A stretch of DNA of 38,186 nt from Chthoniobacterales bacterium (GTDB lineage Bacteria; Verrucomicrobiota; Verrucomicrobiia; Chthoniobacterales; JACTMZ01), in assembly GCA_018883245.1 (NCBI GenBank), contig VEQL01000024.1, forward strand, positions 1 to 38,186. The letters are read 5' to 3'. The notes under the pieces are model-generated. The model ran no database searches, was not told the DNA's origin, and was given only the letters and a program-made list of their open reading frames with translations. Made by a program: the position numbers and the translations under genes. Position 1 is the first letter of the stretch. Each line of letters starts with the position of its first letter. Positions 5,091-33,265 of this stretch are shown here, piece after piece.

Positions 5091-5108
5091 GAAACCCGGC
5101 GGGGTTTC
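5091..5108. terminator. Possible bidirectional hairpin between asd and lexA
   Basis: GAAACCC (5091-5097) pairs with GGGTTTC (5102-5108) around a GGCG loop, between the convergent ends of asd and lexA. There is no convincing T-run on either strand, so its strength as a terminator is uncertain. Confidence 0.4.
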
Positions 5109-5743
5109 TAAGGCCGGATTGCACGCCCGCTGTCTTTCGGCTTGCGGAAAAGCGCGATCATCACGCCTTGGATGACCAGTTCGTGCGCGGGTATGAGGTC
5201 CGGATATCCGGGATTTTCCGCGCGGAGGAACGGCCGTCGGTTGCGCACGAGGTAGCGTTTCAGCGTCGTCTCGCCGTCGATCAGCGCGGCGACGATGTTC
5301 CCGTGGTTCGGTTCGCGCAGTTCGAGCACGACGATGTCGCCGTCGAGGATGTGCGCGCCCGTCATGGAATCCCCGCGCACGCGCACGGCGAAAGTGCGCG
5401 CGGTGTGGGGGATGTCGAGCGAACCGAGGTCGGCGTAAACGCAGGCCTCCGCGCGCTGCTCGCGTGCGTCCGGGAATCCCGCCGGGATTTCGCCGAGAAC
5501 GGGAATGCCCTCGACTTCGCGGCGTTCGTCGCCGGCCACGCGCAATGACCGCGCCGCACCGCGTTCACGCAGCAGCAGCTTTTTGCGCTCCAGCGCCCGG
5601 AGGTGCGAGGCGGCTGCGTTCGGGCTGGCGAATCCGAAATGCTTCTGGATTTCGCGAACCGTGGGAGGCATGCCGTGGCGCGTGCGGTGCCGCCGGACGT
5701 ATTCGAGGACTTGGCGCTGGCGTGCTGTCAATAAACTGGACAT
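5108..5743 (-). CDS. lexA: LexA repressor (SOS regulator, autoproteolytic)
   Basis: A 211-residue protein with the complete LexA layout. The N-terminal winged HTH (about 1-70) has recognition helix S40-P-N-A-A-A-S-H47; E. coli has SPNAAEEH there. The linker holds the self-cleavage site Ala88-Gly89 (EIPAGFPD), and the C-terminal S24-type domain has the catalytic Ser126 (RGDSMTG) and Lys162 (TTLKRYLV). On RecA-ssDNA activation, LexA cleaves itself and derepresses DNA-repair genes. The ATG at 5741-5743 starts MSSLLTARQ, the canonical N-terminus. A perfect palindrome covers this start codon and the -10 region, so autoregulation is expected. recA is also in this window (32216-33265). Confidence 0.97.
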   Translation of the reverse strand: MSSLLTARQRQVLEYVRRHRTRHGMPPTVREIQKHFGFASPNAAASHLRALERKKLLLRERGAARSLRVAGDERREVEGIPVLGEIPAGFPDAREQRAEACVYADLGSLDIPHTARTFAVRVRGDSMTGAHILDGDIVVLELREPNHGNIVAALIDGETTLKRYLVRNRRPFLRAENPGYPDLIPAHELVIQGVMIALFRKPKDSGRAIRP

Positions 5744-5752
5744 GTGTCCAGT
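5735..5752. promoter_or_regulatory. Putative LexA operator over the lexA start codon
   Basis: ACTGGACATGTGTCCAGT is an 18-bp sequence with two perfect 8-base arms around a central TG. It overlaps the lexA ATG (5741-5743) and the last bases of the predicted -10 box. Written as CTGG-N8-CCAG it has the geometry of the E. coli SOS box (CTGT-N8-ACAG) but different outer arms. Autorepression is the expected role; LexA binding is inferred from position and symmetry. Confidence 0.75.
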
Positions 5753-5778
5753 ATCAAGGCGCAGCCATCCGCGGTCAA
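5750..5778 (-). promoter_or_regulatory. Predicted lexA promoter
   Basis: On the minus strand TTGACC (5778-5773), a 17-base spacer and GATACT (5755-5750) form a good sigma-70-type promoter. The -10 box ends seven bases before the ATG, so transcription should start at or next to the first base of the start codon, giving a leaderless mRNA. Confidence 0.65.
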
Positions 5779-27949: not shown

Positions 27950-32202
<4,253 letters not shown>

Positions 32203-32215
32203 GAAATCCGATCCC

Positions 32216-33265
32216 ATGCCTCCCAAAGCCGCCGAATCCAAAGCCGAACCCGTCGCCGACAAAGCTGCCGCGCAACGCAACAAGAACCTCGACCTTGCCC
32301 TGCAGCAGATCGCCAAGGATTACGGCGACGGCGCGATCATGCGCCTCGGCGACCATTCGACGGCCGACATCGAAGTCATTCCCACGGGCAACATCATGAT
32401 CGACCGCGCCCTCGGCGTGGGCGGTTTCCCGCGCGGCCGCATCATCGAGGTTTACGGCCCCGAGTCCTCGGGCAAAACGACGCTCACGCTCACCGTCATC
32501 GCCCAGGCGCAGAAGCGCGGCGGCCTGGCCGCCTTCATCGATGTCGAGCACGCGCTCGACCCGAAATACGCGCAGCGTCTCGGCGTGAACCTCGACGATC
32601 TCCTCGTGTCGCAGCCGAGTTCGGGCGAGGAAGCGCTCCGCATCTGCGAAACGCTCGTCCGCTCCAACGCGCTCGACGTCATCGTGCTCGACTCCGTTGC
32701 CGCGCTCGTGACCAAGCAGGAACTCGAAGGCGAAATCGGCGATTCGACCGTCGGCACGCAGGCCCGGTTGATGAGCGCGGCCATGCGCAAACTCACCGCA
32801 TTGATTTCCAAAGCCCGCACCTGCTGCATCTTCACCAACCAGATCCGCGAAAAAATCGGTGTCATGTTCGGCAATCCCGAAACCACGCCCGGCGGCAAGG
32901 CGCTCAAATTCTATTCCTCGGTGCGCTGCGATATCCGCCGCATCGGCGCCATCAAGCAGGCCGACGGAGCCGTCACCGGCAACCGCACGCGCGTCAAGGT
33001 GGTGAAAAACAAAGTCGCCCCGCCGTTCACCGAAGCCGAGTTCGACATCATGTATAACGAGGGAATTTCCAATGTCGGTTCGCTCATCGACATCGCCCTG
33101 GAAAAAGGCGTGCTCGAAAAGCGCGGCAGCTGGCTCAGCTTCAAGGGCAACCAGCTTGCGCAGGGGCGCGACGCCGCCAAGGACGCGCTCAAATCCGACG
33201 AAAAGCTCTACAAGGAAATCGAAACCGCCACGCTCGCCGCCTTGAACGCGACGGAGGCGGCATAA
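32216..33265 (+). CDS. recA: RecA recombinase
   Basis: A 349-residue recombinase. Walker [12 protein letters not shown] is at residues 81-91, Walker [13 protein letters not shown], the L1/L2 loops lie around [15 protein letters not shown] and [23 protein letters not shown] (in parts), and the C-terminal region ends in acidic/alanine-rich residues. RecA filaments drive strand exchange and stimulate LexA self-cleavage. The ATG at 32216 ([12 protein letters not shown]) was preferred to an upstream in-frame ATG at 32171, which lies inside gyrB. Only 13 bases separate it from the gyrB stop, and I see no LexA-type palindrome in that gap, so readthrough from gyrB is the simplest expression model. 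Confidence 0.97.

Follow-up and report, generated by a model that had tools for sequence, protein, structure and literature searches.

The lexA gene of a Chthoniobacterales bacterium carries a palindrome across its start codon, which raises the question of whether this site is an operator for LexA and, if so, what type of operator it is and which other genes it serves. The gene lies in a stretch of 38,186 nucleotides (contig VEQL01000024.1, here called the window), where it occupies positions 5108 to 5743 of the minus strand and encodes 211 amino acids plus a stop codon. The product scores 159.5 bits against TIGR00498 (cut-off 110.95) and matches PF01726 and PF00717, indicating a helix-turn-helix (HTH) domain and an S24 peptidase domain, and it is the only LexA copy in the genome of the window. 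The sequence and its alignment to LexA structures place a predicted Ala-Gly cleavage bond in IPAGFP and the Ser and Lys of a predicted catalytic pair in GDSM and TTLKRY, respectively; the recognition helix reads SPNAAASHL. Positions 5735 to 5752 read ACTGGACATGTGTCCAGT, in which two perfectly complementary 8-base arms flank a 2-base spacer (ACTGGACA-TG-TGTCCAGT), and this putative operator overlaps the lexA ATG (5743 to 5741, minus strand), as a sequence-only reading of this DNA had described. The window contains one perfect 8-2-8 palindrome, while approximately 1.4 are expected by chance under a first-order Markov model. Consequently, the symmetry by itself is not significant, and the significance of the palindrome derives from its position and its conservation.

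Conservation was assessed in 11 species genomes of the genus, all draft assemblies, of which nine possess lexA (the window genome and eight congeners) and two do not. The palindrome lies over the lexA start codon at an identical offset in all nine, so the absence from close relatives that the sequence-only reading had named as grounds for rejecting an operator was not encountered in any of the eight congeners with the gene. Across the nine species, the site reads ACTG[G/A/C]AC[A/G]-N2-TGT[C/T]CA[G/C][T/C]. Alignment also suggests a promoter, consisting of a predicted -10 element, GATACT (5750 to 5755, minus strand), which overlaps the outer arm of the operator, and a predicted -35 element, TTGACC (5773 to 5778, minus strand), located 17 bp from the -10. 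The -10 position reads NATACT in seven of the eight congeners and AAGACT in the remaining one. The predicted transcription start is the A of the lexA ATG (5743, minus strand). Since this predicted start is located 7 bases from the -10 element and no obvious Shine-Dalgarno sequence is present, the lexA mRNA is probably leaderless.

A second site, ACTGAACATTTGAACAGT, is located in non-coding DNA 28 bp 5' of the start codon of a gene for a Y-family polymerase fused to a DnaE2-type polymerase (L126:1699-5802, equivalent to G000:C2:60998-65101). This site is an imperfect palindrome with the halves ACTGAACA and ACTGTTCA. Seven genomes have exactly the same core, TGAACATTTGAACAGTA; their wider upstream regions differ, and the immediate flanks change symmetrically (ATACTG..CAGTAT, CTACTG..CAGTAG). 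In the window genome, a single open reading frame encodes this protein of 1367 aa, which contains the Pfam domains IMS, IMS_C, PHP, DNA_pol3_alpha and finger domains. The Y-family catalytic motifs DADAFF and SIDE are retained, as is PDIDIDF in the DnaE part. The linker is variable and in part repeat-like (VQCSVFSVQ), and in the six genomes where a single contig contains the complete gene, the frame stays open for 1370-1584 aa. The fusion polymerase is present in all nine genus genomes with lexA and in neither of the two without it. Contig ends interrupt the gene in three of the nine; in one of these, the operator stands at the end of a contig, followed by coding sequence for the polymerase N-terminal VVHLDA. 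The two congeners that lack both genes have assemblies that are 88 and 65% complete.

An error-prone polymerase with a LexA-type operator 5' of its gene, as found in seven genomes, is a feature of canonical SOS regulons, and control by LexA is predicted here. The ImuA-ImuB-DnaE2 mutasome and the DnaE2B-PolY-RecA type, as described in a survey (PMC12926913), likewise pair a Y-family with a DnaE2-type polymerase under a LexA-type operator. In contrast to the ImuA-ImuB-DnaE2 cassette, which has separate imuA and imuB genes and an inactive ImuB, the protein considered here is one polypeptide with intact Y-family catalytic residues. The main text of the survey, searched for mentions of a Y-family/DnaE2 fusion, describes none, and literature searches returned no report of one, which is weak evidence of absence. 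A candidate RecA-NT-like motif after the little finger domain (YGAGSLVR, aligned by eye with YGDGAIMR) is matched in score by 88 of 500 shuffles.

The lexA and fusion-polymerase sites together provide 32 half-sites, from which the genus motif ACTGNWCA-N2-TGWNCAGT was derived. Bases T3, G4 and C7 are invariant, C2 and A8 are nearly so, and base 6 is A in 25 of the 32; base 5 is G in 14, A in 9, T in 7 and C in 2. The CTGG-N8-CCAG arms proposed by the sequence-only reading are indeed the commonest version at lexA, but they are too specific for a genus motif, as base 5 varies while ACTG and CA are near-invariant. The SOS box of E. coli has the consensus TACTGTATATATATACAGTA, with outer (T)ACTG...CAGT(A) arms. 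The genus site resembles it in being an inverted repeat with the same outer arms the same distance apart, in a LexA helix that begins with SPNAA and in the predicted autoregulation. It differs in the inner bases, which are NWCA-N2-TGWN here and TATATATATA in E. coli; where an E. coli-type box would read CTGT-N8-ACAG around an AT-rich core, the genus site reads CTGN-N8-NCAG and its core deviates. The lexA palindrome thus appears to work like an E. coli SOS box without being a member of the consensus. The motif that Erill et al. in 2016 are said to have described for Verrucomicrobia LexA, TGTTC-N4-GAACA, shares its frame, length, T3, G4 and C7 with the genus motif. In contrast, bases 5-6 are TT in that motif and NW in the window genus; a TGTTC half occurs in 0 of 18 lexA half-sites and 7 of 14 polymerase half-sites, and the full motif, looked for on both arms, was not found. 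The Verrucomicrobia LexA work of Erill et al. 2016 is cited in PMC8565304.

Genome-wide scans indicate that the two promoters account for the recognizable sites. A search of the 11 genomes with ACTGNACA-N2-TGTNCAGT and up to one mismatch returned 13 sites, seven at lexA and six at the fusion polymerase, and none for the reversed control. Exact matches to ACTGNNCA-N2-TGNNCAGT, with bases 5-6 free, number nine, all at lexA or the fusion polymerase (control: 3). When two mismatches were allowed, 28 sites were recovered, 16 at these same two genes and 12 elsewhere, the latter at chance level (control: 18). Scans with these patterns would miss weak sites or half-sites. The two two-mismatch sites examined in the window genome lie inside LSU rRNA and hsdM. 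Additional matches to the exact palindrome with up to three mismatches in this genome were rejected as targets owing to their locations, in the LSU rRNA, inside an MFS gene, inside hsdM and at one further unconvincing place.

The sequence-only reading had suggested a search at recA and other repair genes, and this search yielded the fusion polymerase only. In the window, 13 bp separate the stop codon of gyrB from the downstream recA gene (32216 to 33265, plus strand), and the gap between the two genes is 10-20 bp in each of the 11 genomes. Sites too weak for the scans aside, the gyrB-recA junction contains no operator in any of the 11, and recA was therefore rejected as a LexA target. No operator was found in the genome-wide scans at repair genes other than the fusion polymerase. 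The conserved gyrB-recA arrangement (window positions 32200-32216) suggests co-expression with gyrase rather than control by LexA. The genus differs in this respect from E. coli and from canonical SOS regulons, in which recA is under LexA control, as it has only two targets found and recA is not one of them. It also differs from the TGTTC type, whose regulon reportedly includes recA.

If operator and LexA co-evolve, a change of the arms at lexA should be accompanied by the same change at the polymerase. The sister family f7 (genus g7) bears this out. Its lexA operator is mostly GGTG..CA-N2-TG..CACC, from which GGTG arms were expected at its fusion polymerase as well, and GGTGTTCATTTGAACACC abuts the polymerase ATG in 6/6 genomes. 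The ACTG and GGTG arms have thus changed in parallel at both promoters. The recognition helix of f7 LexA reads SPNAAAKHL, as opposed to the SPNAAASHL that accompanies ACTG in the window genus.

The association between helix and operator extends across the order. LexA upstream regions were taken from a sample of the order's genomes, in which 94 of 147 had a match, and the operators for the comparison of helix and base were chosen by eye from ranked palindromes. SQT helices accompany TGTTC-N4-GAACA (TGTTC type), SPNAAAS accompanies ACTGNWCA, SPNAAAK accompanies GGTG, and the helices SPATV, SPNTV, SVATV and SQSTV accompany ACCG or CCCG arms. Other families of the order, as well as Opitutaceae, have the TGTTC type, and part of family f9 has no clear palindrome upstream of lexA. 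Among 67 LexA/operator pairs, all 18 with Thr42 have C at base 3 and all 49 with another residue at position 42 have T, an association that reflects about two independent changes on a poorly resolved tree of LexA N-termini and is not significant by paired comparison. By this sequence evidence, the type of operator varies with the recognition helix of LexA throughout the order, and the contrast between Ser-Pro-Asn in the window genus and Ser-Gln-Thr in the rest of the phylum is a notable difference. Residues 39, 41, 42, 44 and 45 of E. coli LexA take part in DNA binding (PMC13416735; see also PMC5999292). The sequence-only reading had quoted the helix correctly (SPNAA followed by Ala45-Ser46, which align with Glu44-Glu45 of E. 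coli). However, its proposal that Ala-Ser in place of Glu-Glu is the change that matches the operator is not supported, as Glu-Glu in E. coli reads ACTG and Ala-Ser occurs with both ACTG (family f1) and ACCG (family f13). Speculatively, the tolerance for different bases at position 5 may be connected with the loss of Glu-Glu.

Altered operator specificity is also known from the mutant LexA408. It reportedly carries P40A, N41S and A42S and reads CCGT, showing that helix changes of this kind can suffice for an operator switch. Families f13 and f10, with xxxTV helices and ACCG arms, seem to be natural cases of the same shift from CTG to CCG through the same helix residues. LexA408 is a laboratory altered-specificity mutant (PMC9614035), whereas the f13 and f10 proteins are natural sequences with Thr-Val at 42-43 and are relatives of the LexA of the window rather than that protein itself. 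One genome of the order encodes two LexAs, with the helices SPNAVIS and SPATVSD and the matching operator types ACTGAACA and ACCGTATA, respectively; these two paralogues are among the 67 pairs above. Another genome, G123, encodes three LexA paralogues with differing helices and operators, two of which have the fusion polymerase directly behind them; an SPTAV helix occurs there with a TG operator and an SQSTV helix with a CCG operator. At two Opitutales loci, the palindrome upstream of lexA is TGTTC-N2-GAACA, with canonical arms and a spacing of 2 instead of 4. Four Opitutae LexAs have an HTH that is one residue shorter (CSQPTALKHL or CSQQGAAKHL); the palindromes beside their lexA start codons, for example GGTTGTCGTCCGACAACC, are possibly a further operator type.

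The conservation at lexA could have arisen from promoter and coding constraints alone, namely the -10 NATACT and the codons ATG-TCC-AGC (Met-Ser-Ser), with an accidental symmetry and LexA binding elsewhere. The -10 element does overlap the left arm, TTGAC is invariant at the 17-bp spacing in 9/9 species while the sequence between -35 and -10 varies, the right arm does encode Met-Ser-Ser, and bare palindromes of this size are expected in the window. Part of the conservation of the left arm and of the right arm may consequently not speak for LexA. Nevertheless, none of the nine species varies at G4, A6 or C7, which are located past the -10 and before the ATG and mirror the coding side, and one congener with an altered codon 2 (ATGTTCAGT) retains the TGTNCAGT pattern. 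The same arms also recur in the non-coding DNA before the fusion polymerase, and equivalent GGTG palindromes stand at both genes in f7, so we consider this explanation very improbable. Only slightly more credible is the proposal that LexA still reads TGTTC-N4-GAACA and that the lexA site is a drifted, weak autoregulatory site. It would account for the polymerase half ACTGTTCA, which is a canonical half-site, and for the TTC halves at the polymerase of f7 members. However, TTC is found in none of the 18 lexA half-sites of the genus, base 6 is A in all 18, and drift would not preserve identical non-TTC arms across nine species; moreover, the helix is SPN rather than the SQT that accompanies TGTTC operators.

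A third explanation, which is compatible with autoregulation, is that LexA and the fusion polymerase are inherited together as a module, which may also move horizontally, and that this module uses a private operator code and stands apart from the phylum's ordinary SOS response. Clear matches to the fusion polymerase among the 147 genomes of the order are found in f1, f7 and genus g6 of f6, where the LexA helices are SPN, SPF, SPT, SIN or SQS. The gene is directly behind lexA in G123 and G087 and adjacent to or near it in these two and in G060, G080 and G088, and the joint presence or absence of the two genes in the 11 genomes of the genus is as this proposal predicts. On the other hand, the genes occupy separate contigs in the window genome (C24 for lexA, C2 for the polymerase), and the LexA N-termini yield a tree of poor resolution. 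The module remains a tentative proposal, with the balance tilted against it.

The reading favored here is that LexA regulates its own gene through the palindrome, that lexA and the fusion polymerase are repressed through a lineage-specific operator code, and that recA is independent of LexA; we assign it a probability of roughly 0.85. Positions 5735 to 5752 very probably represent a true operator for LexA, of a type specific to this lineage, within a very small LexA network. In this, the sequence-only reading is upheld, as the site is kept in the genus, is unlike TGTTC-N4-GAACA and is of a type that tracks the helix across the order. In the mechanism proposed for the favored reading, a LexA dimer would bind ACTGNWCA-N2-TGWNCAGT, and each of its two SPNAAASHL helices would recognize one ACTG...CA half-site. 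A dimer on the lexA operator would occlude the -10 box together with the predicted transcription start and the ATG, thereby blocking RNA polymerase, as in ordinary autorepression. At the second site, LexA would repress the single fusion-polymerase gene. Following DNA damage, RecA, whose synthesis from the gyrB-recA gene pair would not depend on LexA, would become active and promote LexA self-cleavage, upon which the mutagenic polymerase and new LexA would be made. Between the window genus and f7, the outer four arm bases differ in concert at the two promoters, and the helix of LexA differs with them; base 5 would be read loosely.

A broader proposal, for which we judge the odds to be about even, is that this system is a two-promoter LexA switch with its own operator code, whose sole other target is the Y-family::DnaE2 polymerase, and that the module has been inherited across families while arms and helix switched repeatedly (ACTG, GGTG, ACCG, TGTTC) within one order. 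Because the regulon of the window genus is very small, an operator switch would need few simultaneous changes. At least four operator types, each with matching helices, occur in the order, as do paralogues with different operators in one genome. If the proposal is true, the module and its repeated switches would offer a series of natural variants from which the LexA-DNA code could be read and would address the open question of how a repressor and all of its operators change together. Should the fusion polymerase be active, it would constitute a damage-induced mutator of unusual simplicity, which would fit the view of mutagenic polymerases as the core of the SOS response.
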